From Kappaphycus alvarezii (taxonomy: Eukaryota > Rhodophyta > Florideophyceae > Gigartinales > Solieriaceae): a DNA stretch of 64,000 nt. This document shows positions 3,003 through 46,416 of the stretch, one piece after another (position 1 is the stretch's first letter; each line of letters begins with the position of its first letter). Both the position numbers and the translations under genes were made by a program. The stretch is taken from NCBI GenBank assembly GCA_002205965.3, contig NADL03000481.1, positions 1,488,001 through 1,552,000 on the forward strand, given 5' to 3'. The notes beneath the pieces were generated by a model. The model saw only the letters and a program-made list of their open reading frames with translations. It searched no databases and had not been told where the DNA came from.

Positions 3003-4189
3003 GACCATGTAGAGATTGCTTGGTGAAGAGCGCGGACGCGGTTGTTAGTGACTGAGTCTGTTGCGAAAGCGGAACTTGAGACGTGCCAGTCTGGTAGACA
3101 GATTCGTGAAAGAGTAGAAGAGGATCAAAAATTTAGGTTGCAAATGGAATAGTGCGCTTCTGCATGTGACGTGAGGTGATAGATGCGAGGAAACTGCGGA
3201 TGCGGATCAGGCCAAGGCATTAGGAAGACGACTTGTGCCGTTCGGTAACAAGCGGCCGGGCAGGCCAGTGTGGTCCCAAGATGCAGCTACGAATTCGCAC
3301 AGCGGAATTATCTCTCAGCACAGTACTGGTCGCTTCTTAATGGAAGTTGGATAGGGTGAAGGATCGTCTCGCCAACTCACAACACTTCTAACGCCGTCTG
3401 TCCGCTGACAGGGCTCGTAGCTACTTTCAAGTAGCCATTTCATAGCGCGCCCATCGTCACCGCATTGCGTCCTTCGCCGCCGCTATACTGCACAGGTTAA
3501 TGGGATTTTCACCCTATGTTCCACTCGCAGTAAACCAACCCAAAGTTCCCCGTTCTCCACACTCTCCCCTCTCATCACTCAACCCAACAACTTCAGAGCT
3601 TCAAAATTTCGCTGCTTTCGGCGCCCGCCCGTGGGACATGTCGTCGAGCGCGGGCGCAGCCACTTCCGCCGGTCTAGCGGGTTTCTCGTGCAGATCAATA
3701 CGCCGCGACCGCTGCGCTCTTGCCGCCCCGATCTCGTCGATACCCGTGTCCACAGTACCGCCACCTGTCGCCCCCGGAGCACGTTGGACGAACCGGGAAT
3801 GGCGCGCAAGAAGGATGACGTTGCTTTCAATGGTATTCTTCAAGGTTGCCCGTCCCAAAGAAACAGGTACATAGTCTTTTGGTGCCAAACACCCCGCGCC
3901 CGTCACTTAGTGACGGGAAGCTCCAATCTTCCATTTTGGAGGCCGCCCAATTTCAAACAAAACCTGAAGGCGTCTATGGTAGACGTCAAGGCGCGAGAGT
4001 GGGGTTATCACGGCCGCGGAGACGGACATTGACCTGCCTTTGATGGGACCATACGCAACCGAGCGATTGTGGGTGCCTGCTTGTTGCACGGACTGGTAGT
4101 ATGTTCAACCCTTTCGACTTTGCACTCAACCCCCGTTATCAGGAAATTTGAGTAAACCACCCCAGTACGATCACTGCCCTCCAATCTTA
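3003..4189. other. Intergenic and unassigned DNA
   Basis: Several overlapping short open frames occur at 3500-4030 on both strands without recognisable domains. The stretch may be the decayed 5' part of the reverse transcriptase remnant that follows. No RNA gene or promoter was recognised. Confidence 0.4.
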
Positions 4190-28082: not shown

Positions 28083-30277
28083 ATGCAATCTCCCAACATT
28101 CCCTCTACAGACCCTTCCTCTACCCCCGACCGGAAGCGACTACGTCTCCACGTCTCCATCGAAACGTCTGCCGATGGCAAAACCCCAGTCCAACAAGTCT
28201 TCTCCGATGGGTCCTACATCCCAGCCACAGACACACATTTCGAGCGTACATCCGCCATTGCCACCGCCTTTGTCACTCGTGCACTCGCTGCTCCTACAGG
28301 AACTGCTTCAATCGAAACAAACGCTGCGGAATCAAGAAATCCCTCCGCGAGGTGGGCAGCAAAAGCAGTCACAGGTATCGAGGGTACCTTATATGAATTG
28401 GGTAGAGCTTTGGCAGTTATTGAGGCTTTGAGATCTCAGCAACCGTTGTTGGAGTTGAAGAGGACGGTAGCGAGAGGCGTTAGACAGGGAGAGGGTGTGG
28501 CATCTGAGCTTGCGGAACGAGAGGGTGAGGGTATGATGCAGATGAAGAAGAGACTCGTTGCTAGGAGTGCCGAATATTTAGATGAGAAGATCAAAGCTTC
28601 CCGAAAGTGGATTGAGGCCGATAACGCCTTTTGTGATGCCTTTCTGACAATGAGGAAGCGGTGCAATGGTGTTCGCCGCACCCCGAACGGCATCCCGTTG
28701 ATAGACGTGGGCGATGCTAATTTTGTGCCTATAACAAGGGCTATAGAAATCAGTGCGGGGACGAAACAATGGAGATGAGTACCGGAGAGGAAAGTCAAGC
28801 CTCAAAGCGTTTGGTTCATGTTCAGTTTCCGGCCCACACCTTTTTGAAATTTGGCATCAATCCCTTGGACAGTGAGTACAAAACAACCACCGCCCCAGTG
28901 GTGATGGAGAGCGAGCGAATTGCAGAGGAAAAGTCATTGATGGCCGTAATCCGACGAGTGAGATTAGCTCGCGTATCTGCCTTCCGCCGCAGGACCTTTA
29001 ACCAAATCCGGAAAGAGGCCGACTCTCTCCCATTATTAACAGAGCTAACCACTAGTTCAGTGGGCGTGGAGAGCGGCCCCGTTGATATTTTGCGGGTGGA
29101 GAAAAGTAAGCAAAGCGAGGGTGCCAAATCGTTGGATTTAGGCGTGGAGGGTATCGCGGGGAATCCAGACAGTATCGGAGCGTTGCAAACGGCCAGTTTA
29201 CTGCAAATGGTAGCCATGCATGCATGTCTGACGTCGGCCGTTAATTCTGGGGCGCAGTCGTCAACAATTATGGATCGGTGCTGGCCGTAACAGCTGCGGC
29301 AAGTGTGTTACAAAGGACAGAACAGGTTTTGGATAAGGCTGTGGAAGTGCTTCCCGTTCGCTTAGAGTGGACCAGGGGGGCTCGAGATTGGAGGAGGCTC
29401 GGATAAAGGTGTTTTCGACAACCACAGACGGTGATGGCCCGGAGCGCGCGTTGGCAACGATTGAACCGATTTCCGCTGTGAATAACGGGGGGAAAGAGAG
29501 TCATAATGGGCATGTGAGGATTACTCCCGCCTTCGGAGTTATTATTGCGGCTCCAGATGATCCGGGTGCCAGGGGACGGGCGGTAGCTCCGCATCCTTCG
29601 AGCACTGGCGGCGGATCGTCGGCGTTGGGTTTGGATGACGTGCCCAGATCGTACGTGTGTCCGGTTGGGGGGAGGTTCTGTCAGTGCTGACATTGTTGCT
29701 GTGCATTCGCCTACTCGATGCACTGGAGGCAGAGGCCCGGGCAGGAGTGGAAGAGATGCTGGATGTTGATCGCCAATGTTTCACGGTGATTGTGTGTGCG
29801 CCAAGAAATGGCCACACTTTGAAGGCCAAGGTATGGCCGAAAGGACCTTGCGTAGGAGCAGAGGTACCTGGGTCGACGGCTTGGTTTAATGGACAGAAAA
29901 TACACGGCTTTCCTGCCGTCGGCCCGGGTCGCGTGGTGGCCTGGAAAGAGTTGCTCAAGAGACTTGTCGCTGGGGATGTGGACACTGGAAGTGACCCGGC
30001 AGAGGTGAGAGCGGAAGCCAAGGTAGGTGGTCTATCTGGGCAGATTGGTGCCGCCAAAGATCCAGAGGCGAAAGAAGAAGGCTTGGATGGGGCAGCTGGT
30101 AATACGGGTCTTACGGGTGGGACGTCGCAGAGGCAGGCGCCGGACGGAGCAGCGGCGGCGGCGGCGGCGGCAACGGCAGCGGCACAAGCGGCGGCACAAG
30201 CTGCGGCTCAAGCGGCTGATAGATTCGGATTTGGACATTCAGCAACGGATTCTGGTCAGTTTCAATTTGAGCTATAA
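28083..30277 (+). CDS. Mediator complex subunit 17 (frames interrupted)
   Basis: MED17 is a head-module core subunit of Mediator, which links transcription factors to RNA polymerase II. From ATG 28083 the N terminus RLHVSIETSADGK...VFSDGSYIPA resembles the MED17 start (VRISIES...DGTETYLP in human). A helical region follows with MKKRLVARSAEYLDEKIKAS and the Glu/Arg-rich FCDAFLTMRKRC segment, then RRVRLARVSAFRRRTFNQIR, like the 'AR-slF-elf-qL' helix of the family. The C-terminal part includes ITPAFGVIIAAP and GRVVAWKELLKRL, then an Ala/Gln-rich tail to TAA 30275-30277. Four single-base losses (about 28770, 29262, 29380, 29640) break it and no gains are needed. The assignment rests on motif order, chiefly the N terminus. 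Confidence 0.6.
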
Positions 30278-30280
30278 AGG
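30273..30280 (+). promoter_or_regulatory. TATA-like box overlapping the MED17 stop
   Basis: TATAAAGG, 62 bp before the xylulokinase ATG (30342). Its TAA at 30275-30277 is the MED17 stop codon. A TATA-consensus match at a sensible distance for a core promoter. Confidence 0.4.
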
Positions 30281-30296
30281 CCCTTTTCCGAAGGTG

Positions 30297-30302
30297 AATA
30301 AA
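30297..30302 (+). terminator. AATAAA polyadenylation signal candidate of MED17
   Basis: AATAAA 20 bp after the MED17 stop, inside the 64-bp gap before the next ATG. If used, MED17 transcripts end at or past the xylulokinase start. Confidence 0.35.
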
Positions 30303-30341
30303 ATCGAGCATCATGGCCCTGCAGATACCGTTTCCATAACT

Positions 30342-32073
30342 ATGGCGTCATTGTCATTCATACTTCCAACGGCAGCGTTTCCTCTCAAACATTCAGCTTT
30401 TGTCGGTCAAAGCTCATTCCAACGGCACCGACGGTCCCGCGATGAGCGCAACCACTCTCAAGTCCTTGGTAATCCTCATATCTCTCTCTCCATCTCCCCT
30501 TGCACCGATGATCAAGCAATTCTCTCAATCGATGTCGGTACCTCCGGTACGAAAGCCGCCATCTATCGACCATCTCAAGCCAGCCCTCTTACTAAAGTCC
30601 ACCGCATCTCTTACAAAACTCGCACCGCAAAACCTCTCCACGTCACACAAAAACCCTCAGACTGGTTCCACGCTGCGATCGAGGCCTCCAAAGCCGCTTT
30701 ACAGGATATTCCGCCATCACAACCTATTTGCGGTGTAACGGTAACCGGTATGTGTCAAATTGTTTTCCTCAAGACTCAGAACGCCGAGGGCTCACCCCTC
30801 GCAAAGTACTAACATCAATTCTCACATCCAATATTTGCTCCATATTATGACAAATCTTCACAGGCCAGATGCAAGACCTTATCGCGGTGGGTCCTGATCC
30901 CCCTCAACTTTTGTCCTCCTCTGCGATACTATACTCCGATGCACGTGCCCATGTCCCTGCTGCGAGGCTCTCCTCTTCTCTTTCCCTCTCTATTCCACCC
31001 ACGGACATACTCCCCAAACTTACTCTTTTGCCGCCTCCATCGACTCCTTCATACTCTCTCCTTCTGGGTGCTGCAGATTACCTACTATATTCCTTCTCCG
31101 TTCCTCCAAAACCTACGGTTACAGATCCTACGACGGCATCAACCACTGGACTAACTTTGTCTCCGCACCGCATCTACAACGAGACGCTGCTCAAAGCGGC
31201 AGGATTGGAGGGCTTTTTGGGGTTGTTGCCGAGGATTCTAGAGCGACCGCAAGTGGTAGGTCACTTGAGCGGGGAGGTGGCGCGGATGTTGGGACGACAG
31301 GATATGGAGGGAGTAGCTCTAATTCATGCGGGGGGCGACGCATATAGCACAACAGTGGGGCAGGATGTGACGGGAAGGAGAGTGGGACGTACGTTTATTG
31401 TGGAACCTCGGGATGGATCGGGGGTACGAGACGAGTGGGCACCGAAGTACGGAACGGTTTATTCGCTCTGGGACACATGGAGAATGAGGGGCTGGAAATT
31501 GTGTTAGGAAGTATGGGCTCTGCTGGGGGGAACTGGACTTTTGTTGCTGGAGAGATGATGTCTGTTGAGGTAGATGAGATCTGTAAAATGGCAGAGGGAG
31601 TCCAGGTTGGGGCGGGAGGGGTGATGTGGGTGCCATATCTAGGGGGGAGGAGATGCCCCATGCCAGACGGGATGGCGAAAGGAGGGATGATAGGTTTAGG
31701 CAGTGGATGTGGAAGAAAGGAAATAGCCAGGGCGGTGGTGGAAGGTGTCGTTTTCGGGTTTGGAGAAGCGGGAGATGTGGTTGGGGGGCTGAAGAAGGGA
31801 TTAAGGGTTGTGGGAGGAGGGAATAAGTGCAAGGAGTTCATTAGGGGGATTGCGGGTGTGCTCGGAGAGGGAAATGTAGAAGTGGGGTGCGGCGAGGGAG
31901 TTGGAGTGCTTGGCGGCGGGGTAGTTGGTAGTAGGGTGCTGGGAATTAAGGGAAAGGAGTACGGCAGGGGCGATCGGGTCTCAATCGGGAAACAAGAGAC
32001 TGAAGAGTGGAAGAGAGCGTTTGGGATGTGGAGAGAAGCGTGGAGGAGGATTGATGGGCTGAATGGAGTTTGA
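30342..32073 (+). CDS. Xylulokinase of the FGGY family, plastid-type, one intron
   Basis: Phosphorylates xylulose to xylulose 5-phosphate, feeding the pentose phosphate and plastid isoprenoid routes. ATG 30342 gives a Ser/Arg-rich leader of about 50 residues resembling a plastid transit peptide, then the FGGY phosphate-binding start ILSIDVGTSGTKAAIY. The first exon ends in VTVTG; splicing out 30748-30863 gives VTGQMQDL, the xylulokinase block. Later come LLLGAADYLLY, TTASTTGL, GLEGFLGLLP, HAGGDAYSTTVG and GHMENEGLEIVL, then the C-terminal GLRVVGGGNKCKEF block, ending at TGA 32071-32073. One lost base near 31430 shifts the frame. About 540 residues, normal for the plant plastid enzyme. Confidence 0.8.
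30748..30863 (+). other. Spliceosomal intron in the xylulokinase gene
   Basis: 116-nt intron with donor GTATGTG at 30748, branch-site TACTAAC at 30807-30813 and acceptor CAG ending at 30863. Removing it restores VTGQMQDL across the junction, with the Gly codon split after its first base. It is the only intron I can support in the window. Confidence 0.85.
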
Positions 32074-34343
32074 GGGGTTTTGGGAAGTGTTTTTGCTAAA
32101 CTCACTGCTTTGAACCAGTCCTGTAGCAAGCAAATTCGAGTGAAAGGGTTGAGCTGCGCAATACTTCGCAAGAGGAGGTAGCAGAGTCCTAGCAGGGATT
32201 GGAGGTTTAAAGTTAACTCCGCATTTGCATCTCCCGTCATTGTACTTATCTGTGACGGAGAGGTCCATCTGCAGATCAGAACTGTGTCATTGCAGTTCCG
32301 TTCCAGTGAAAACCCGTACTTATGGCCTCTTCCACATACCCCAGAAACTATTCAGTTTCGGTAATGACGAACACCTTTCATTTTGCTGTCATGACGTTCC
32401 CATGAAGCAGTCGGGATTGAAAGTGGTGTAGTGCTTATTTCGACGTTCCCGGAGGAGAGCAGCGGATACAGGGGAAGTTAAATACGCACAGAGCATTGTT
32501 TCGTACAGTAGAAGGCAGAGTTGGAGCTCGGAATGATCGAAGCCTGAATCAGAGAAAGGGATTGTGCAAACGGTGCATATTCCTATAACCCTTCCGTTGT
32601 ACAATGAGACGAAAGGCAGATGCGGCAGGGTTTAGTCCTTCAAATGACATCGCTATCGGAATACATGGGTGAGGATGAGCATTTAAGGAGGAGGGAGCAG
32701 ATTCTTTTTGCACTAATGCAGACTGATTTCCATGAATTCGCAGTGCTTGGAATGAAAGTGGCTAGCAACGTAGTCTACAACAGTACTGACTTGTGGTGCC
32801 TCGTGACCTGGAGAGGAAGATTGCTCATCCTCTCAACTGCTGGCTCCGTCTCTATACCACGAGACGCTCGGAATTCTGCTGGTCCCCCTGAGCTTACCAA
32901 TGCTACGAAATCTAGAATATCTCAGCAGAATGTGCGCGACGCCCCCATTCCCCGTGCTTATCCGTTCCTCCATGTCTAAAAGCACTTAAAGACGCTTGAT
33001 TTTGGTGGCCTTGGCCCCGTATCCGCGCCTTTGCAACGTGTTGTCGTTGATTATGCGAAATTCATCGCGTTCCGCTCCGAGCGAGAATATCATGCGACGA
33101 AAGATCTCATTCAGTAATTGCGTAGATATCCAATCTAGTCCATTGTCACAGCTGCCCCCTTACATTGTGGCAGAGAGGGCAACTCTCAACCACAGTGACC
33201 TGTATTCCCTGTTCCAGAAACTATGGCGAACCTCTTCCATTCAAAGTTTAAAGCAGGGCTTTGGGACGGGATGATTTTACCTCGTGATTGTAGCATTCGT
33301 TCTCGTCGTTCGCACTTTGTGTGCCTCGTACTTGTGGCTCGTTTTCTGGCTCAGAATGGAGTATGCCTTGCCGTCTGGGCATGTCCTCGGAGTCTGGATA
33401 CGATGCACTTGTAAAATATTGATCTGCCTGCGATGTGCAATATCATGTTACCTTATGAAAGGCACCTGGGGGAATGTACAAACTCTCGTAATGCCACGCG
33501 TAATGGCACAAAAGACGAACTGCAGCCCCGCCAACAGCGCGGCTAGGCTTTTGGAGCACTCAGTTTCACTTATTCGGTTACGAGTCAGTAAGGCAAGAAT
33601 GCATCATTTGCAAGCTGCACCGTCAGATATTTATGTGGACGTCAGACCATGGGTTGATTACTTTATGTGAATGTGATTGCAGCAGGATAGACTTGCTTCG
33701 GTGGCGGCCCTTTGTGTTGGATATGATATGATACAATGCGATGTTGCTGTCGCTGTTGCTGTGCTTGAAACACATGCTCGCTGTTGGATCTGCCGTGTCT
33801 AATGCCCCAAAACACGGAAAAAGTTTCGAGTTTTAGCTAGATACCGCATCAAAGCCAGGCACGTAACTTGAAATGATCGTCCTCTCGGTGGTAATAACCT
33901 CCTGCAGGTGGCACTGCAGTTTGCTTTGTACTTTCAGCTGCATTATGAACTTTATCCTTTAGTGCTGTTTCGAGAGGATGAAGCTCTGGACGAGTGGCGA
34001 ATAGATTTAATGGGGCTGTTAATATCGGCTTCGGTTAGCAGTTGGGCCTGGACAGCAGCCCCTGAACGCAGGTGTTGGACAGCACTTGCAGGCAAACTGT
34101 GCAGGTCCGAGATCATAATATGATATTGCATGTGTACCGCAGGGCAGACAGCGCACAAACTTGCATATTTCGACTGCATTGCAGTGCTGTAGTATCTGTT
34201 TTCAAGAGCGGGAAAGTTTCTTTAATATTTGAAAGATGCGAGCGGCTGTGTCCCAGGATAATCCGCCAGGTATCCGGCAGCGGCCTGCACTGATCAGTAC
34301 GAAATACCCTCTCCACTAGGGGGTTTGCCTCTCTCTCTCTCTC
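32074..34343. other. Long stretch without a recognised gene
   Basis: One open frame at 32620-32979 (119 residues, no known motif) and another at 33284-33670 are the longest; neither looks like a known protein. A CT dinucleotide run at about 34327-34344 borders the direct repeat that follows. Confidence 0.45.
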
Positions 34344-34705
34344 TTTAACCACACCTTTCTGAGTTCTGCACTACGGAAACAAACTGTGCTGTACTGTGGG
34401 GTAGACATGCCAGACACCCAAACAGTCAGGGCAGGTTGTATTCAAAGAGCAACCTCGTAGCGGGTGCTCTACTGGAGGAGTGAAGACTCGCCTGTATCAG
34501 AAGCTTAGCTATTCAATCTGGTCAACATGTGCAGCATCCGTAATTTGTCGCGCACCGCAACACGCAGGGATCAGCCACCCAATTCCAACTTGATTTTCAG
34601 TACTTTGCAACGTTGCACATTTGGACTGTACACCAGTGATAAAACATGGAACCTTGTCGAGAATAACAAACGATGTTTGGAATAGATACAGTAGTTACAA
34701 TGTAC
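34344..34705 (+). repeat. Left direct repeat flanking the non-LTR element (362 bp)
   Basis: Begins TTTAACCACACCTTTCTGAG and ends GTAGTTACAATGTAC. A second copy in the same orientation lies at 38765-39143. By eye they differ at about ten positions plus one 19-bp tandem duplication present only in the right copy, so identity is roughly 97 percent. Confidence 0.9.
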
Positions 34706-34749
34706 AACAAACTCTTTTATTACAGATTCACTAAACCGAGCAGGGTCAC

Positions 34750-37625
34750 TCACGCATCAGGTGATGCGAGAGACAGGGCACGGCGAGCTACGGCATGGGC
34801 CGTGAGCTGGAGGACGAGGGAGGAGAGGGTGGTGACCAGGCGGTCGTATTCGACGGCAGCGGTAGTGCCGCGTCGTGTGGAGAAGAAGGCGGCTATCTTC
34901 CCTAGCGCGTGTGGAGCAGAGGAGCCCAGTGCCCCGTGTGTGTCAAAGCCAAGGGGGTAGAAGTCAGCGTGTATTGTTGCGCAACGGTCGGCGTAGCGTG
35001 CCCTCTTCTGGGTCTCCACAGGGAAAGTGGCGCCGCCTGGGGTCTTGCGGCGTGGGGGATGGCGGCAGCTGTGTACGGGCTGGCGACAAAGACATCTATG
35101 GCGCAGGGGCGAGGAGAGAGCTCGTAATTGTCGATTAAGATGTCCATCCTGTGACGGTCTTGGGGCGGGAGGTGGTTTTCCGCGGGGAAGGTGTACTCGA
35201 GGGTGGGGTTGAGCAATGCGGATGGGTGCCGAAGTAGGGAGAACAGCTTGTTCCGTAGGTGGTTGTGCCTTCGGAGAAATCCTTCCATAGTTGGGCAATG
35301 AGTCGCGTGTCTGCCGAGCGGGTCGAGGATGGGCGGTGAGCGAGCGTTGGAGAGCAGACATCGAGGGCACTGGTCGTGGCCACTGAAGACCGGGTTGCCG
35401 AGGCGCAGTAGGACCATGTACGTCCAAATCTCGGGGGAGACTCGAGTAGAGCTGCGTGAGTCCGGGAGTGTGAGGAAAGGGGAGTTGGCAGAGCGGGTTC
35501 GGCAGCTAAGGTTCCTCGCGAGGCGTTGGGCTGCGGTTTCATGTTGCGGGGGAGAAGTTAGGTATGCTTGCAGGCGTTGCTCATGAATGGCATTGGTGAT
35601 AGTTTGCTGGACGCCTTGCGGTGGGCCCACCGTATGAAGGCGGGCGAGCAGGGGCTCGAGTTGGAGGTGGTCGGGGAGGAGGGACTGGTTGAGGGAGCTG
35701 TGCGTTCTGCGGATGGCAGAGGTGAGTAGGTGGCGCCCGTCGTCCGGGAGCAGGTCGAGGATGATGTGATAGGAACTGAGCATGGAACATAGATGAGCGG
35801 CGGCGTAGATTGAGGATGTGAGTGTGAGTCCCAGGCCGCCCATTGTGAAGGGAAGTGTTGCGCAGTGCCAAGAAGCCTGATGAAGGTCGCGATGAATCCT
35901 TTGAAAAGCCCCTCGCAGTTCTTCATCAAACGCATTTGACGAAGAAAGGGTTAGGTGCGGCGGGGTTGTCCGAAGGGTGTACACGAGCTTGCATGCGCTT
36001 GCGCAGTGGCGAAGGAGGTGGAAGGAAGTTTGGGGATCCCGGAGGGCTGGAAGGGCTGCCCAGATGTTCCGGGCGGACTGGAGGCTGTGTGGGAGGAGAG
36101 AAAAGCATCCGCGGTCAGTTCCGATCGGGGACCCGAGCACTGTAGTGGCCTCAGCAGTGACGATTTTGCATTGGAGGCGGGGGAGGTTGTCCTGTCCGAA
36201 CCACCATGCTTCAGTCTTCTGCATGTTAATAAACATTCCTATCTGCCTGCCTTCCCTCTCGATTGTATGCAGTAGATCCAGGGCGTCACGGGAGGGAAGG
36301 ATGATATTGCCGTCGTCGGCATACCATGCGTGCATCTTTGCTGCGGGGAAGGATGTGTGCAGATGGCGGAGGAAAGGTTGGATGGCGAGTGCGTACAGGT
36401 GCATGGCGAGAGGGTCGCCTTGGTGTGTACCTGTGGCAGACTGCAGGACGTAGGGGCCGAAGTGCAAATCCGAGGCCCTCCCGTAGGTTAGGTGAACGAA
36501 CCTGGCCGCCTGTGGAGCGTAGTCGATGACCGAGCGGAGAAAATAGGAGCGCTCCACGCAGTTGAAGGCGTTGGAGAGGTCGATTTTCAGTAGGACGTAG
36601 TCTTGATCTTTGAGGGCAGAAGCCGTGAGGCGGAGGGCGTGTATGATAGCTTCAATGCCGTGTCTAGAGCCAACTGCGTGTTGCAGCGGACGTAGGTGCG
36701 AGAGAAAGACGCCGTCGTTGCTCAGTCTAGCTGCTAGGAGCCGTGCCACAAAACGTCTGTATAGGATCCCTATTGCTATAGGCCGTAGACGTAGAGAGTC
36801 AGGTGAGCTTTTCGGGATTGCGATTAGTGATGCGGCGGAGAGGCAGGTTTGGAGTGAGGAGGGTACAGTGCCGTTTGCGAGCTTGTTGACGAAGTCCGTT
36901 AGGGCTGATAGTGCGTTTGCTTGTGGTTCTCCGCCCGCTGGAGCCGTGGAGAGGACGCGAAGGATGGAGGGTCGCATGCCATCCGGTCCGGGTGCCGAGT
37001 GCCTATTGAGGGCTTGCAAGGCTCGTCGAACCGTGGACTCGGCGAAGGGGGTGACGGTAGAGAGTTCGAGCTGAGGGGTTGGCGTGGCTTGTTGGAGGGG
37101 CGAGGGGTGAAGGTTCTGGAGGATGGGAAGTGTGTGTGGGGAAGGCGTCGCCGGTGGCGTGTTCTGTAGGAGGGCAGCCGTTGCTTTGGAGGGACATCCG
37201 TCCTGGACATATCGTTGACATCGTTGTATTGGAGACTGGGTCGCCCTCTGCGGCGCAGTGGGATGTTGCAGTGGTGGAAAGGCGTCAGTGCAGCTCGTGT
37301 AAAGCTGTTGCCATTGTCCTTGCCTAGCGAGGCGGATGCGGTTGCGGAGGGTTGAGATGAACGCCAGTGAAGAGCGAGTTCGTGTCTCGTGCCGGCCATT
37401 CCTGCGGAGAACTAGTTTTGGCGTTGCCAGGATGCAGGAGAGTGCGTCAGCTTGGGTGTCTTGTGTGCGGGCTGAGTTGTATCGGGAGTAGAGGTCGTGG
37501 AATAGGCGATGGAAGTCTGCGCGGAGGCTGTTGGGTAGGTATTTCAACGTTGGGATCCGCAGTTGATAGATAATGTCGGGTGTCGGGCATGGTTGGGGGG
37601 TCGAGGATGTGGGTGATGCACTCAT
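34750..37625 (-). CDS. Non-LTR reverse transcriptase with zinc-finger and endonuclease-like tail (ORF2)
   Basis: A nearly unbroken 907-codon frame (37625-34902) plus a C-terminal part in the next frame to 34750, joined by one lost base near 35010. Order: APGPDGMRPSILR near residue 214; SLIAIPKSSPDSLRLRPIAI; RHGIEAIIHALRL; LLKIDLSNAFNCVERSYFLR; TGTHQGDPLAMHLYAL; catalytic AWYADDGNI; and FTMGGLGLTL. Then CPRCLL...GRHATHCP...RRHN, a CCHC-type motif with R/K-H-N, and HRMDILIDNY...CAIDVFVASP followed in the other frame by KRARYADR and FYPLGFDTHGALG. That order is typical of early-branching non-LTR elements with a restriction-like endonuclease. Catalytic residues are intact, so recent activity is plausible. 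A 3' AATAAA follows the stop on the minus strand near 34720. Confidence 0.8.
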
Positions 37626-37706
37626 TGGGAGGTGACCATGTCAGCATCAAGTGGAGGCGGTGTGCCAAGCGGGGTCGTGGGGAGTGGGCCGTCAATTTCG
37701 AAGTCG

Positions 37707-38749
37707 TCAAGAACACTTTGAGGGGGAAGCGGGGGGGCTGGGGGATGTCGGTGGGTGGGGAGGGCACGGGTTCGGGAGTCGCGGGGTCAGGGGGCGGGGC
37801 TCTTGCATACGGGCGGGTGGGGTCCCGGAGGGGGCTTGGGTAGGGAGGAGTGAGTCGGCGATTTGGCGAAGGGTTGCGAGGAAGTCGTGGCGCAGGCGCC
37901 ATTTGCACTCGTCAGAGGAGAGGCGGGCGATTTCGGCGGTGATGATTTGACGGAATGCGGCGAGGTCGGCGTCAGATCGGCAGGCTTCGCGGGGATTCTG
38001 TATTTCCGTGAACTGCAGCTGGGGTACAATGAGGTCCTCGGTGGTGGCTTGGTGGCGGAACCTCCTGTAGGCGTGAGGGATGAGCGGGACAGCACGCTCG
38101 GGTGCGATCAGGAAGAAGATCGAGGGAGTGGCGGACTGGAGCACAGCAAGAGGTGCGCGCAGTCCTCCCTCACGCAGGGCGTGACGGATGTGAGAAGGGC
38201 TGCGGATTCGTCCAGTGGATTCGGTAACTTGAACGTGGATGATGCGGCACGGTTCAGGTGCACAGAGCCTGCGGGCGGTGGATGCGATGGTGGAGCGGGC
38301 GCGACGGGTGAGAAGCGTGGGGTAATCGGGATCGTCGGCGGTGTCGGTCGGGGGGCGTCTTGGAGGCGGAGCGCCGGGAGGGAACGCGCGGGGCGCGCAG
38401 GTGCGGGGCGTGCGGCGACTGAGGCGTACGTGGGGGTGGCGTTGGCTGGGTGGCGCGTGACGTCGGCTGTCGCGTCGACGTTTTCCGAGCTCACGGGTGA
38501 GCCGGGTGAAGCAGAGTCGGGGAAAAAGGCAGTGGACAGTTTGTGCAGCAGGGCAAATTCCTGCCGCATCATTGTTTCAACAGCGCGGAAGCCAGGGCCT
38601 TTTTTCATGGCAGCTGCGAAACGCGAAACGGCGTTCTCGTCCCCGAGGTCAAGGGGGCAGATGGCGGTACGGAAGGACATGGCAAGCTTGAGGAAGGAGG
38701 CGGCGAAGTTCTCCGGCTGGAGGGAGGGGGGGTTGGGGGGGGTGCGCAT
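37707..38749 (-). CDS. ORF1 of the non-LTR element (function unknown)
   Basis: Upstream of and co-oriented with the reverse transcriptase. Starts at ATG 38749 (MRTPPNPPSLQ), about 15 bp inside the boundary with the right direct repeat. A helical N-terminal part (FAASFLKLAMSFRTA, MMRQEFALLHKLSTAFF) is followed by a long Ala/Pro-rich linker, a frame break near 38120, then VPLIPHAYRRFRHQ and WRLRHDFLATLRQIADSLL and a Pro-rich end. No zinc knuckle, RRM or coiled coil is obvious. Position suggests an RNA-binding gag-like role; that is inference. It may be continuous with ORF2 in the intact element. Confidence 0.5.
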
Positions 38750-38764
38750 GACGAAACTCAGTAG

Positions 38765-39143
38765 TTTAACCACACCTTTCTGAGTTCTGCACTACGGAAA
38801 CAAACTGTGCTGTACTGTGGGGTAGACATGCCAGACACCCAAACAGTCAGGGCAGGTTGTATTCAAAGAGCAACCTCGTAGCGGATGCAACCTCGTAGCG
38901 GATGCTCTACTGGAGGAGTGAAGACTCGCCTGCATCAGAAGCTTGGATATTCAATCTGGTCAACATGTGCAGCATCCGTAATTTGTCGCACACCGCAACA
39001 CGCAGGGCTTAGCCACCCAATTCCAACTTGATTTCCAGTACTTTGCAACGTTGCACATTTGGACTGTACACCAGTGATAAAAGATGGAACCTTGTCGAGA
39101 ATAACAAACGATGTTTGGAATAGATACAGTAGTTACAATGTAC
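38765..39143 (+). repeat. Right direct repeat flanking the non-LTR element (379 bp)
   Basis: Same orientation and sequence as 34344-34705, with an extra 19-bp tandem duplication of the unit GCAACCTCGTAGCGGATGC near 38872-38909. Confidence 0.9.
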
Positions 39144-39360: not shown

Positions 39361-39598
39361 TTTCGTCTAGTGTAGACTTGTTTGTGCGGATGAAACGTCA
39401 ACAGATGGATAGCGAGGCTGGGACTACAGAGGACAGTACACGATGCGTAAGTGTCACCTACCTAGAACTGTACTAGTGCCGTCACCGGTCTTGGAGGAGG
39501 ATCCCAACGATTGAGCAAGAGCAAAGTCGGTTTGTGCAAGAATGGGGATAATTAAGCATCGCGCTTAGTGATAGGTAGGAGGCATGCCTCTCTCTCTA
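39361..39598 (+). repeat. Left direct repeat of the DIRS element
   Basis: Starts TTTCGTCTAGTGTAGACTTG and ends in ATGCCTCTCTCTCT. The right copy at 43496-43731 is about 95 percent identical by eye and in the same orientation. Same-orientation end repeats suit a PAT-like or Ngaro-like split-direct-repeat organisation. Confidence 0.85.
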
Positions 39599-39753
39599 TG
39601 CCTCTCTCTCTCTCTCGAGAGTCCCCAGGTAGACCCAGGTGGTAGGCACGTTTCAAGCAGGTCAAAAGAATCCGACCAAGTTAGAGAAAGAACTCAAACA
39701 AGAAACTCAATCTGTGTATCCTTTCTTTGAGAACTCATCAATAAGCACTTAAC

Positions 39754-40428
39754 ATGTTTAAGGACAGTGTTAACGAGGTCAATTCACTTCTTGTCAAGGC
39801 AAAGAAAGTTGCTAAAGGTGAACCACTTTCCGAAGCTGCGATTGAGCCGGAGTGGACGCACACCTACGCGAAAATTGCCCGTTGTTGCCGAGATGATGGT
39901 GGGTTTGGGCTAACACGTTATCCTTACTAGCCAGGACCCTCCGTCGGCGCCTTTACTGGTGGGTTCTTCGAGCACACTGAGTGGCTCCTAAGGAAAGGTA
40001 TAGAAAAGAACAATAGTCTAGGTGCAGTATCGGAGTATGAAGTACATTACATCAACTCCGCAGGATACTGGATGGCTTTTCATGAGGAAGCAATTGGCTT
40101 ACGTCAAGAAGCTATCGAAGCCAGTAACGAAGCAGATGCTAAGAGTTATGACGTATGGGCATTGATGTCGATTCGATACGGCCTCCGGGTTGTTGGTCTT
40201 CGTGCAGAATTCTATAAGATGTCCTCTCGCGATCCTGCCCATGCTGATATGGTTATGCCAAGCCTTCAAAGGCGCTGCGATATTGCAGCAGCTGATGATC
40301 GTGTTGAGCCCTTCGAAAATATGGAGTCGCACATGGCAACTAAGGTGATGAAGGCAGTCGCCACTCTCAGTGCAAACATCGCAACGAAGCTTGCCAATGG
40401 AAAGGGTGGAGCCGCCAATGTCCAGTAG
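39754..40428 (+). CDS. DIRS element first ORF (gag-like), one in-frame TAG
   Basis: From ATG 39754 (MFKDSVNEVNSLLVKAKKVA) a single frame runs to TAG 40426-40428, interrupted only by TAG at 39928-39930 (TRYPY stop PGPSVGAF). The product, about 224 residues if read through, is mostly helical with no zinc knuckle. It lies directly ahead of the reverse transcriptase frame inside a DIRS-type element, so a gag role is inferred from position. Confidence 0.5.
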
Positions 40429-40433
40429 TCTCC

Positions 40434-42414
40434 ATGCGACGCGAGCGCCCGCTTTGGCGATACACGCAACGGCAAGCCAAAGCGTGGCGCAAACTGGGTG
40501 CATCCGACTATTTGTGTCGAGCCGTCCAGTTCGGTATCTGCCAAAACTTATTGACACCTTTTCAGCCCGAAACGGAGGCATGGCTGTCCGAGATACCTAA
40601 AAAAGCGGAAGATCGGGCGTATACGGAGGCCGATCTTGTCGAGGGATGCCGTTCGGGATCGTACGAGGAAGTCTCACTGCAGCATGTCCAGCGTGCTCAC
40701 AAAGCTGGTGCAGTGATCTCGTCCTCGTTGACAGTATGGCAAGAGAAAGATGGAATCAAGAAGGGAAGATTCGTGGTCAAACTTTCCGTGCAATCGAAGC
40801 ATTGGAAGAAAGGGTCGGTGCGTATGGAGAATCTGGCAGAGTTTGCCATGACTCGCCAAAAAAGGGACCAAATGCTCTCCATGGATATTTACCGTAGCTA
40901 TCGGGCGTTCTGTCTCCACCCATCAATGAGAGATTGGTCTATATTCCATTACAGTGGCCGGTTTTATCGCTGTGTCGCTTTATATTTCGGCTAGGGAAGG
41001 TCCCCGTTATGGTTTACGCAGCTCATGGATCCGTTAGTGACAGAAATGAGGCATCGGGGGTGGAGAATACTTCACTATATCGAAGACTTTCTTGTGGTCC
41101 CGTCACCCTACGGTTGCCATTTTGGATCACTGCGAACTTGCTCGTCCGCAGCTGGAGAAGCTTCTAGCCACGTTTGGGCTGAAGCGTCACCCAGACAAGG
41201 GGGAATGGTTAGATTCAAAGGTTGTGGATCATCTAGGGGTTTTCGTGGATACGACCGAACTCAAGTTTTACGTGCGACCGGACAAAGTCTTGAAAGTCGA
41301 AGTACTAGCAAGGAAAATAATGAATTCAGCGATGATCGGAAAGCGATGGGTTCCAGAGTCATGGTTGACGACCTTCTGCGGTACCTGAGTGTCGCGAAGC
41401 TTAGCTACGCCATGGGTACGGTACTATACTCGCTCTCTATACTCGGACATGAGCATATAATGACCACGCGATGCTCGCGGAAGGTGCCGCCTTCCTCACC
41501 AGTAAATTCGAGACTTAAAATTCTGGAAGAATCTGTCTTGGGAAGACCTACAAGGACGCCTTGTGCAACCAGCTACGCCAAATGGGTCTATGCATACAGA
41601 CACGGCCGACATTGGTTATGGTGGGACACTTCACGACTCGGACCTCCGTCCAGGTCGCCCTGGACTGTGGTGTGCCCAAGGCGTCTGGCATTGGGAGGAG
41701 CGGGCAAAAAGTATCACCCTCCGCGAACTACGTGCAATACGGAAACTCCTCTTGAGCGCCCTTGGAGACGAGGCTATACGATGGGATATGCGACACTTGC
41801 GTTTGTACGTCGAAAATCAAGCGGTAGTCCATATTACGAACAGCATGGTGTCCGCGAACACGGCGCTGATGCGCGAATTACGGCGCCTGAAATGTTTGCT
41901 CGATCGAATGAGTATATCAAGTCGCGCGTAATGGCTCCCCTTAGCGTTAAATCGCTTCGCAGATGCATTATCGCGACGCTTCCCTCGCGGAGACTTGCAG
42001 ATCTGAGGGCAGCTATTGCGTTCCGTCGTGGCTGGGATGAAGGCGCCGATCGACACCTTCAAGTTCCGCCCGTTAGGAGAACCGCCATGGTTCGCTCGTC
42101 GACAAGCGTACAAGGAGCTCGCTGGAGAATGGAAGCCCAACGAAGTTCGGCTCCTATGCCCACCGATCGACCACCTCAACGCCACAGTCTTGAAGCTGGC
42201 TCAGACCAGGGCACCCGCGTTCCTCATCATTCCGCATTGGCCGAGGCAACCGTGGCACCAGGCTGAGGTACGAATGGCTTCCAAGGTTACGGTATTGACG
42301 GAGCCAGCTCACGAAATATGGATGGGCCAGCGACGCGTGAACCCAGCATGGAAAGCGCTTCTGCTTGAAGTCAATCTCGACAGACGCGGTCCCATACCCG
42401 AGTCAATCGAGTGA
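40434..42414 (+). pseudogene. DIRS reverse transcriptase and RNase H, several stops and shifts
   Basis: DIRS-type polymerase. RT blocks: MLSMDIYRSYRAFCLHPSMR, FHYSGRFYRCVALYFG, then TAG at 40992-40994 where the family has Trp (FGWGRSP), GRSPLWFTQLMDPL in the same frame, YIEDFLVVPSP (the YxDD box is degraded to YIED), a one-base gain near 41113, then LEKLLATFGLKRHPDKGEW. The RNase H part begins HTDTADIGYGGTL near 41575 and ends near NRFADALSRRFPRGDLQ, with TAA and TGA stops at about 41929 and 42004. The final frame ends at TGA 42412-42414, overlapping the ATG of the recombinase. Family assignment clear; this copy is dead. Confidence 0.75.
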
Positions 42415-43385
42415 TGGGTCATCAAGTCGAGAACGTGGCTGGTGCTACTCGTGGGGCTCGAGCGGCGGCAATTCTCATAACCGAATACGCTTTGAACAAC
42501 AGGACGATTTCTTCCCGTAACTCTCAGTGGCAGGCATGGTTGGAGTTTTGTAATTCTGAGAACCGAACACCACTACCTGTGACTGAAGCCCACCTGCTAG
42601 CCTTTATTGGTTGGTTGAAGGTGGAGCGAGAAGAAGGTCGTCGAAACGTCAGTAGATCTTCTATACCACAGTACTTTAGTGCTGTGCGGAAGATGCAACT
42701 GGAACTGAGTAATCAGCCAGTTCCGTCATTCGGTCTGGTTGGTCACGTTCCTCGCGATTATGCAAAGTGGGAAGAGGAAAATTTTCCGCAAGAGGAGGTA
42801 AGGTGCGGCATTGATGCCACACAGGCGCATCGAATCTGGGGGTTAGGCATGTCTTCAACATCTATCCGTGTTATCCGCAATGCCACAATGTGTGTCTTTG
42901 CGTACTATTTCAACGGGCTACGCGACAGCTCGGTGGTTTCAATCGCTACGCCCAACGTACAGTTAACTGAACAGATCATGACCGTGCATTTATCAGTCGT
43001 TAAAGGGAAGGAAGCCAGTCAAGTTTCGCTATTAAACTACGAAGGCAACAACGACCTGTCATCTCCACTCGATCTCTTCCGCAAGTGGAACTCCTGCCGT
43101 GGACAACATCCGCGATACTTTGCTCTCCCTGGTGAACGAGTCGAATAGACACGGGGTGGGCTCAATCAGGCACTGAAGAGTTGTATCGAGATGTTAGAGC
43201 TAGTACCAACCATCCATGGCAAGTTCACCTCGAATTCGTTACGCATCGGCTCGCATACGGAACAGGTGTTGTTGGGAATTCCCGTTGAAGCACGACTCGC
43301 AAAGTTCGGTTGGGGCTAAAACAGCCAAGACATGGCTAATTTATTTGTACTTTGACCGCCGAATTCGTCCTACCGCCTCGTCCTA
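42414..43385 (+). pseudogene. DIRS tyrosine recombinase, two in-frame stops and a shift
   Basis: Starts at ATG 42414, sharing TGATG with the upstream stop. An N-terminal SAM-like core-binding domain (WQAWLEFCNSENRTPLPVTE, HLLAFIGWL) is followed by the catalytic domain: FNGLRDSSVVSI (first Arg), VVKGKEASQVSL (Lys), NSLRIGSHTEQVLLGIP (second Arg; the His of HxxR is Asn here) and, after a shift, YFDRR (nucleophile Tyr). TAG at 43146-43148 and TAA near 43318 interrupt one frame. Such recombinases integrate the circular cDNA of DIRS elements, replacing an integrase. Confidence 0.75.
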
Positions 43386-43495: not shown

Positions 43496-43731
43496 TTTCG
43501 TCTAGTGTAGACTTGTTTATGCGGATGAAACGTCAACAGATGGATAGCGAGGATGGGACTACAGAGGACAGTACACGATGCGTACGTGTCACCTACCTAG
43601 AACTGTACTAGTTCCCGCACCGGTCTGGGAGGAAGATCCCAACGATTGAGCAAGAGCAAAGTCGGTTTGCGCAAGGATTGGGATACTTAAGCATCGCGCG
43701 CAATGATAAGTAGGAGGTATGCCTCTCTCTC
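43496..43731 (+). repeat. Right direct repeat of the DIRS element
   Basis: Same-orientation copy of 39361-39598; followed by further CT runs at 43770-43790. Confidence 0.85.
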
Positions 43732-44235
43732 TTCCGCCCTCCCTCCCGTGGTTAATACCACATCATGCCTCTCTCTCTCTGAAGGAGTGTACAGAGGGGT
43801 ACACAGTGGGGTAACGAACACATGTACATTTGTGAGGTGGAGTTCAAAAGTTATCCTGGCAGGGGCGGCGGTGCAAGGGGAGGGTGAAGAGGTGGTGGGT
43901 GGGCGATTTTGTCAAATGGCAAGATGGCGGAGATGTCAAAGTGTCAGACATGAAACATAACGTGTCAGGAAGTTCCGAGTTCGACTCCAGATGGGGACAT
44001 GTCCACGCTGTTGCGTTCCTTTTATTTGATTGATGTTTCGCTCTGTATCAATTGGAGGCGGTGACAAGAAGTCACGCACTGTGGAGTTCTGTCGCTACAG
44101 CATTATGCTTAATAAACGACGTTTCAATCATTAAAACACCCCAATTTTCCCCCGTAGCCGGCGTGGACCACCTTGCCAGCCCTCAGGTAGCAATGTCGTT
44201 GGATCTTGCAACGGACACATCTCAAACTAATTCTT
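43732..44235. other. Unassigned DNA between DIRS and the palindrome
   Basis: Only short frames; CT microsatellites at 43770-43790. No gene recognised. Confidence 0.4.
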
Positions 44236-44565
44236 CATTGGCGCTACTCTCTACAACCACCGCGCTTACTTGCAATAGGTGTTTTTCAAGCTATCGTCGC
44301 CTTGGCTTGTCAGGGCTTCGGTAATGCAGTTTTCTTCCTTCCCTTTTCCGTGTGCGAGCATCGGTTCAGTCGTTGCCGGATTGAGTTGAGTCTTTTTGGT
44401 CTCTCTTTCTTTCCCCCTCTAGTACTTGCAGGGAACAGTTTATCGGATATTTACAGTACCCTCCGAAGTTGTAAATTTGACTAATTTCTCAGAGACTCTC
44501 TAGCTGTCTGCGTGACTCTGCTGCTCTGGTCGATGGCGGTGACCAGGTCAAAATACTGTAAAGTA
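44236..44565 (+). repeat. Left arm of a 330-bp palindrome around the Tc1 element
   Basis: Nearly identical to the reverse complement of 46086-46416, with a few substitutions and one-base indels toward the outer end. The arms meet exactly at the TA target dinucleotides of the Tc1 element. Confidence 0.85.
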
Positions 44566-46085
44566 CACTGCCACCTATAATTATAAAGCACCCCACAGAA
44601 TGCAGGTGTATCAGCTATACATGCATATTTTTAAAAAGTGATACCTGATATGGAATCAGCGCCCTTTCATGCGGTGGTAACCAAGGCAATTTTGTACAGT
44701 TCGTGCAACTGTAGTGCAAAAAGTATAAAAGTGTCATTTTATGGGCAACTATAATTATAAAGCACCTTCACTTAACTCAGCAGAGTAGGGCCTTCACGAG
44801 CTTCGCGGCCACTTTATTCGCATATCAATAATAAATACCTCCGCCGGAACGCTCAAGCACCTCGATACACCAGTTTGGCATTGAAAAAAGTAGAGAATGA
44901 TCAACAGAGCTGTGCATTTAACTCCAACATTGTTTCACACAATTAATGAGCTCTTCAACTGACCCAAACTGCCTCGCATTCGCGTATACCTTTCTTACTA
45001 ACCATCCTCAAACATTATCTATCTGATTCAGGTCCAGAGGTTGAGCGGGCCAGTACATTAGACGAATTCCATTCTCTGAGAACCACTTCCTCGAGTCTTG
45101 AATCACATGGATGGGAGCATTGTCTTGCTGATACGTCCAGTCTAACGGCATAAAATTTTCCACCTTCAGATAGATCTTTTTTGTTTGTCTTCCATTCAAA
45201 ACAACCAAATGCTTCTTCCCGAAGCCAGATATTCCTCCCTAAAACATTGCACCGCTACTACCATTCTGACTTCTGCTAATAAGCGTATGATTGTTACACA
45301 AATCATGCCAGTATGCGTGAAAGACATCGATACCATCCAAACAGATGCGTTTCTAATCGTTGAACAAAATGCTTTTCCACTTCCCATGGTTCCATGTAAC
45401 ATGATCTCTTGCCCACTTCAGAAAATTTTCCTTATGAGATTGACTTAGCGGGGAGCGTTCTGCGCCTTGCGAAAGCACATTTGGGGGTCTTTAGCCAGAA
45501 TTGCGGGCGTCCGCGACAGAGAGACCGGTAGCCCACACCTTTTTTGTCAGTGTCCACACCTTTTCGGGGCTCTCGGAAGAGATTGCGCCCATCTTGGTCG
45601 CTTATTTTTGAGGGGCGGCCATTGCGAGAATTTTTGTGCTTTTCTGCTGGATCTTTGAGTAAGTTTTGGACTGCGGCTCGGCTGCGTTCGATATCTCTTG
45701 TAGTTTGGGCATCAGATTTTCGTTCCTGGTGTAGTGCCAGTATTTTCCCTTTCTCAATATCGGTAGGGGCTTTTCCGCGGGGCATTTTTGTGTCCAGAAG
45801 TTTTTGCTGGATGAGAGCAGTACGGATAAAGGGAATGAGATCCATTAAGACGCAGGGGAAGGTTACTAGCATCTTCGTTTATAGAAATACTTTATAATTA
45901 TAGTTGCCCATAAATGACACTTTTATACTTTTTGCACTACAGTTGCACGAACTGTACAAAATTGCCTTGGTTACCACCGCATGAAAGGGCGCTGATTCCA
46001 TATCAGGTATCACTTTTTAAAAATATGCATGTATAGCTGATACACCTGCATTCTGTGGGGTGCTTTATAATTATAGGTGGCAGTG
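44566..46085 (-). mobile_element. Tc1/mariner transposon with IR/DR-type ends
   Basis: 1,520 bp flanked by TA on both sides (44564-44565 and 46086-46087), ends CACTG...CAGTG. The terminal inverted repeats are about 200 bp and each holds two copies of an 18-nt element (CTATAATTATAAAGCACC at 44575-44592 and 44749-44766; the inner right copy near 45890-45903 is shorter), the IR/DR arrangement of transposase binding sites. It encloses the minus-strand transposase. Confidence 0.85.
45008..45785 (-). pseudogene. Tc1-like transposase (frameshifted)
   Basis: From ATG 45785 (MPRGKAPTDIEKGKILALHQ) a helix-turn-helix domain leads to NGRPSKIS, the GRP linker of Tc1 transposases. In another frame CLDGIDVF follows, near the first acidic block, and then DWTYQQDNAPIH (second Asp) and PAQPLDLNQIDNV, the usual SPDLNPIEN block with its third acid as Asp. 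At least two shifts and stops in about 260 codons, compared with about 340 for an intact Tc1 protein. Confidence 0.7.
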
Positions 46086-46416
46086 TACTTTACAGTATTT
46101 TGACCTGGTCACCGCCATCGACCAGAGCAGCAGAGTCACGCAGACAGCTAGAGAGTCTCTGAGAAATTAGTCAAATTTACAACTTCGGAGGGTACTGTAA
46201 ATATCCGATAAACTGTTCCCTGCAAGTACTAGAGGGGGAAAGAAAGAGAGACCAAAAAGACTTAACTCAATCCGGCAACGACTGAACCGATGCTCGCACA
46301 CGGAAAAGGGAAGGAAGGAAACTGCACTACCGAAGCCCTGACAAGCCAAGGCGACGATAGTTTGAAAAAAATCCTATTGCAAGTAAGCGCGGTGGTTGCA
46401 GAGAGCAGCGACAATA
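46086..46416 (-). repeat. Right arm of the 330-bp palindrome
   Basis: Reverse complement of 44236-44565. It runs into DNA upstream of the Myb-like gene of the adjacent Harbinger element. Confidence 0.85.

Follow-up and report, generated by a model that had tools for sequence, protein, structure and literature searches.

A probable target-site duplication of ~362 bp at one insertion of a putatively R2-like non-LTR retrotransposon in Kappaphycus alvarezii

Our data show that a non-LTR retrotransposon in the genome of Kappaphycus alvarezii lies exactly between two long direct repeats, and we consider it likely that both repeats stem from one insertion, in which a member of an R2-like family duplicated ~362 bp of host DNA that had held a single such unit. 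The element is ordinary and its insertion exceptional; it does not represent a new type of element. The stretch of DNA analyzed here, hereafter the window, spans 64 kb, and the features under study are collected in Table 1. Our literature searches found no publication on this element.

Table 1. Coordinates, within the window, of the element, the two flanking copies of the unit, and associated features
Feature	Position	Strand	Remarks
(CT)n tract immediately outside the unit	34329..34343	.	Like the tract beside the unit in contig C6
Copy R of the unit (probable duplicated target), 362 bp	34344..34705	+	Adjoins element 3' end
~200-bp dispersed-repeat fragment in copy R	34454..34654	+	Unit positions 111-311
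Non-LTR retrotransposon body	34706..38751	minus	Both ends common to other copies; 3' end ...AATAAAAGAGTTTGTT, 5' end TCATGCGCAC...
ORF2 (reverse transcriptase; CCHC / MD..D / K-like motif in its C-terminal domain)	34902..37625	minus	
ORF1 region	37707..38773	minus	Split over two frames in the window copy
13 bp separating copy L from the common 5' end	38752..38764	minus	Private to the window copy
Copy L of the unit (probable duplicated target), 379 bp	38765..39143	+	Adjoins element 5' end
17-bp tandem duplication	38870..38905	+	Copy L only; spans left border of the dispersed fragment
Same dispersed-repeat fragment in copy L	38892..39092	+	Coordinates from copy R plus the 17-bp shift

The two copies of the unit, R and L, share the same orientation, and a global alignment spanning both in full contains 9 substitutions and one gap of 17 bp (BLAST places the gap elsewhere and counts 8 mismatches instead of 9). 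Their BLAST E value within the window, ~1e-155, rules out a chance repeat, and the gap is explained by a 17-mer that is doubled in tandem in copy L. The body with which we searched the genome (34706-38764), which includes the 13 bp private to the window copy, is separated from the repeats by 0 bp on either side. An earlier, sequence-only reading of this DNA had described same-orientation repeats of 362 and 379 bp flanking the element, and the exact coordinates, the absence of any gap, and the alignment over the whole length bear it out. The same reading had offered three explanations for the repeats, namely that the lineage makes very long target duplications, that the element inserts into a tandem 360-bp repeat, or that the repeats are part of the element.

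The reverse transcriptase of ORF2 matched Pfam RVT_1 (2.5e-15), and a comparison of ORF2 with PDB sequences placed R2 proteins at the top (best 1.1e-8) and LINE-1 ORF2 second. These matches confirm the earlier assignment to the non-LTR type and agree with the LINE order. The C-terminal part of ORF2 displays, by eye, a CCHC-like pattern and MD...D...K residues, which we read as a putative restriction-like endonuclease; a Pfam search of this part returned no match and a PDB search nothing credible. The motif is altered in some copies (e.g., L023, L028, L030, L036, and L037). Measured against L010, pN/pS of the C-terminal part was 0.06-0.45 in 22 of 22 copies, and on these ratios it looks to be under purifying selection. 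The reverse-transcriptase part gave values of 0.11-0.55 in 21 copies and of 1.42 in the window copy, the latter derived from only 5 changes. The element is probably a member of an R2-like non-LTR retrotransposon family with a putative restriction-like endonuclease. The window copy itself is defective: its ORF2 changes frame near position 35030, and its ORF1 region, for which a Pfam search found no match, is broken up. When ORF2 of L010 and of the window copy are compared, the match stays in one frame up to residue 865 of 907. A structure prediction for the whole of ORF2, made without an alignment, reached a mean pLDDT of 39.6, too poor for use. Searching the 64-kb window against Rfam at gathering thresholds gave 0 matches, and a scan of viral contigs for ORF2 gave 7 pattern matches and 0 relatives.

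All genome searches covered 336,021,096 bp in 884 contigs. The search with the body revealed a dispersed family (40 scored of 543 candidates); 17 of the scored loci (L009-L025) are near full length, and most of the others have lost 5' sequence or are broken. A 3' end at body position 4059 is common to many copies, with starts at positions 14, 113, 1388, 1587, 1854, 2157, 3025, and others, and this shared 3' end with variable 5' truncation is likewise found in the LINE order. A protein search yielded 14934 candidates (50 scored), a number which indicates that related subfamilies are abundant. Since the other listed copies begin no earlier than body position 14, except for L012 (position 10), the ~13 bp at the 5' junction of the window copy are its own. 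Bases of this kind, lying between a short duplication and the common 5' end, were also counted by eye in L014 (3), L021 (4), L015 (9), L017 (14), and L010 (27), and the 13 bp of the window copy are comparable to those of other full-length copies. A templated origin for these 13 bp was rejected, as the match was equalled by 382 of 2000 shuffles.

We compared the flanks of 41 loci (L009-L049, the window copy being L009), taking ~1.5 kb for L009-L038 (less for L026, L027, L028, L035, and L037) and 0.5 kb for L039-L049 (1.1 kb on one side of L049). The set is partly redundant: L049 is the same as L034, L038 and L046 are parts of a single copy, and the flanks are in common within the pairs L010/L011 and L022/L023. 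In seven loci (L020, L022, L023, L024, L033, L035, and L038), the match stops short of the 3' end. Only the window locus is flanked by a long direct repeat on both sides; 0 of the 40 other loci have one, and the same repeats are absent from all 16 other near-full-length copies (L010-L025). These counts rule out terminal repeats owned by the element, whose absence again agrees with the LINE order, as well as an LTR element or a Penelope-like element with (p)LTRs. Nor is a long duplication a regular feature of insertion, as in R9, given its occurrence at 1 of 41 loci. Short repeats of 18 and 24 bp lie within 60 bp of both ends at L026 and L027, those of L027 in simple sequence. The flanks differ from copy to copy, save in pairs that resemble duplicated segments. 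The bodies of one such pair, L010 and L011, are 43 substitutions apart, with L010 being the closer of the two to the window copy (20 substitutions). Another pair of loci, L014 and L016, are inverted copies ~4.5 kb apart on contig C143, and by eye the 5' flank of the former and the 3' flank of the latter have TAAACTAACTCTA in common, as if an inversion between the two copies had swapped flanks. The element resembles R2 and other elements with a restriction-like endonuclease in its best PDB match and, by eye, in its putative C-terminal motif, whereas it differs from the R2 group in that the flanks seen reveal no fixed target site, in its two ORF regions, and in the short T/G-rich tails that follow the 3' end in many copies.

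Target duplications in the other copies, where recognizable, measure ~7-11 bp, which identifies the family as one that makes target duplications. For our junction test, we took the last bases of the 5' flank (45 bp plus 2) and the 55 bp with which the 3' flank begins, and recorded the longest stretch identical in both. The test covered 33 loci that retain a 3' end (L011 was omitted as a duplicate of L010; L009 and L049 were included). Matches of at least 9 bp occurred at 9 of the 33 loci versus 8 of 1056 mismatched pairs, and those enriched were 9-11 bp long. Clear cases are TTTACTGCACA (L017), ATGCTCTAA (L015), GTAGATGGAA (L021), and GCTTCTGGAT (L039). The nine matches need not all be duplications: those of L013 and L044 look like T/G-rich tail, and that of L019 is, by eye, simple sequence beside another 10-bp match. 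At the remaining 24 of 33 loci, no junction match of 9 bp was seen. Very long target duplications, which the sequence-only reading had offered as one option for the lineage, are therefore not its habit, and the proposal survives as the best explanation of one insertion.

Searching the genome with the full unit uncovered it at this locus only, and the other 38 scored matches were confined to unit positions 111-311 (40 scored of 1245 candidates); the same search found no tandem array of the unit. The confined matches correspond to the 5'-truncated 3' end of a dispersed repeat unrelated to the element. In addition, the first 110 bp of the unit occur in three places (3 of 3 candidates scored), two of them here and the third on contig C6, a site that was not among the 40 candidates scored in the full-unit search. 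C6:658036-668035 matches window positions 29251-34180 at 96.8% over 4940 bp, and the C6 segment matches window positions 34276-34460 at 91.7%. The unit stands there once, after a CT tract, and lacks both the dispersed fragment and the element; the homology stops at unit position 353, 9 bp short of the right end of the unit, past which C6 has other repeats. C6 thus shows a single unit and, to its left, the arrangement before insertion, but not the ancestral right junction. An FGGY-type carbohydrate kinase gene lies in the 5-kb segment that is duplicated on C6 at ~97% (window 29251-34460 and locus L073), and further along C6 are 380-bp direct repeats, a pair ~6 kb apart and LTR-like in appearance.

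These searches also settle much of what the sequence-only reading had expected from a genome-wide check of copies. Empty arrays, which would have favored target specificity, were not found; constant flanks, which would have favored terminal repeats, were absent; and the flanks do differ between copies, as it had expected for target duplication. Site-specific insertion into an array of the unit was rejected given the differing flanks and the lack of any such array among the 40 of 1245 candidates scored, together with the single unit on C6 and the location of other copies elsewhere. The repeats are no part of the element either, the unit being host DNA with a fragment of an unrelated dispersed repeat inside it.

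All 9 substitutions between copies R and L fall inside this 201-bp fragment and 0 in the 161 bp outside it, a clustering expected with P ~0.005 if they were evenly spread, and two pairs among them stand 2 bp apart. The element in the window has 11 private substitutions in ~4041 bp, which would predict ~2 differences between the copies where 9 are seen (P ~0.0002). Using 26 members of the dispersed repeat, which as the best matches to copy R are a biased sample, we assigned the derived base to copy R at 4 sites and to copy L at 5. At 7 of the 9 sites, the derived base is absent from all members (at one of these, only 16 of the 26 have a base), and at the other 2 sites, it occurs in 1 of 26. We rejected gene conversion from members of the dispersed repeat as an explanation for the 9 differences, with no donor among these 26 sequences biased to copy R. 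The excess may stem from local hypermutation, error-prone fill-in, or conversion by members outside this sample.

A duplication made by a single insertion is supported by the exact abutment on both sides, by the one unit on C6, by the full unit occurring nowhere else among the 40 of 1245 candidates scored, by the short target duplications that other copies do make, and by the 161 bp free of substitutions, which are expected for an insertion whose element has so few private changes. Against a single event stand the excess of substitutions, though it is confined to the dispersed fragment, the end of the C6 homology before the right end of the unit, and the occurrence of one such event among the loci examined. 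The excess speaks for a rival in which some unrelated event had already duplicated the 362-bp unit in tandem before the element entered at the junction between units, as an older duplication would raise the number of differences beyond that predicted from the age of the element itself. Yet, 161 bp without a substitution would not be expected from an old duplication, the insertion would have had to strike the junction exactly in order to abut both units, the C6 paralog has one unit, and no further site with a full unit was seen among the 40 scored of 1245; we regard such a prior duplication as unlikely.

An insertion with a short duplication might instead have been followed by template switching or break repair at the 5' end, copying the flanking unit across. 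Both the 17-bp tandem duplication of copy L and the 13 bp private to the 5' junction are compatible with repair synthesis, but ordinary copies also carry unshared bases at their 5' junctions and the second event would need to end exactly at the end of the element, which leaves this sequence of events quite improbable. We give the least credence to an assembly artefact, in which two haplotypes of one locus were joined via the element: the ~2.5% difference and the indel could be allelic, and the assembly does contain paired loci with common flanks (L010/L011 and L022/L023), but two independent insertions in the same orientation, one at each end of the same unit, would be required, and no substitution lies outside the dispersed fragment.

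For the single insertion that we favor, we propose that a nick in the + strand, at the right end of the unit (...ACAATGTAC), exposed a 3' end that primed reverse transcription of the element RNA. This + strand end, at the right end of copy R, does join the 3' end of the element, as target-primed reverse transcription predicts. The other strand would have been cut ~362 bp leftward, at the edge of the (CT)n tract, compared with ~10 bp in other members. Separation of the strands between the two nicks, followed by fill-in synthesis, would then have produced a copy of the unit on either side. Both the order of nicking and a role for the CT tract, which may have favored the distant second nick, are inferences. 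More generally, and as a tentative idea that may well prove wrong, a non-LTR element with a restriction-like endonuclease that normally cuts ~10 bp apart could finish integration with a second nick >300 bp away near a fragile (CT)n tract, thereby duplicating host segments, including a resident transposon fragment, with fill-in that is perhaps error-prone (9 substitutions and a 17-bp slip).

To our knowledge, L1 in cultured cells and R9 are the main sources of known large target-site duplications. The L1 endonuclease is of the APE type and its large duplications come from cell culture, whereas the present element has a putative restriction-like endonuclease and resides in a natural genome with no known repair defect. 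In the L1 study, duplications >100 bp never exceeded 10% of events in HeLa cells, a minority of insertions as in our family; nucleotide excision repair (NER)-deficient cells had many insertions with large duplications, for which the authors proposed a distant second nick (PMC5223499). R9 of bdelloid rotifers, likewise a non-LTR element, has a very long stretch of duplicated host DNA on either side, its stagger and target-site duplication being 126 bp; this duplication is reportedly a property of R9 as such (PMC6895275), whereas here it marks one copy and the other examined copies have short or no recognizable duplications. Our analysis suggests that an R2-like element in a natural genome, here one of 336 Mb, can produce large target-site duplications too. 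What appeared to be a puzzling "LTR-like" non-LTR element becomes an ordinary one whose insertion was extraordinary, and the case is a warning not to take long flanking repeats at a single copy for element termini.

The neighborhood of the insertion holds further repeats. A neighboring element is bounded by 250-bp direct repeats (39361-39610 and 43496-43745; 91%), and its ORFs (40072-43148) resemble, by eye, a DIRS-type RNase H and a tyrosine recombinase, with a weak Pfam match to an integrase (0.062). Beyond it lies a 527-bp inverted repeat (44237-44762 and 45890-46415) with 98% identity, and related repeats occur in C6.
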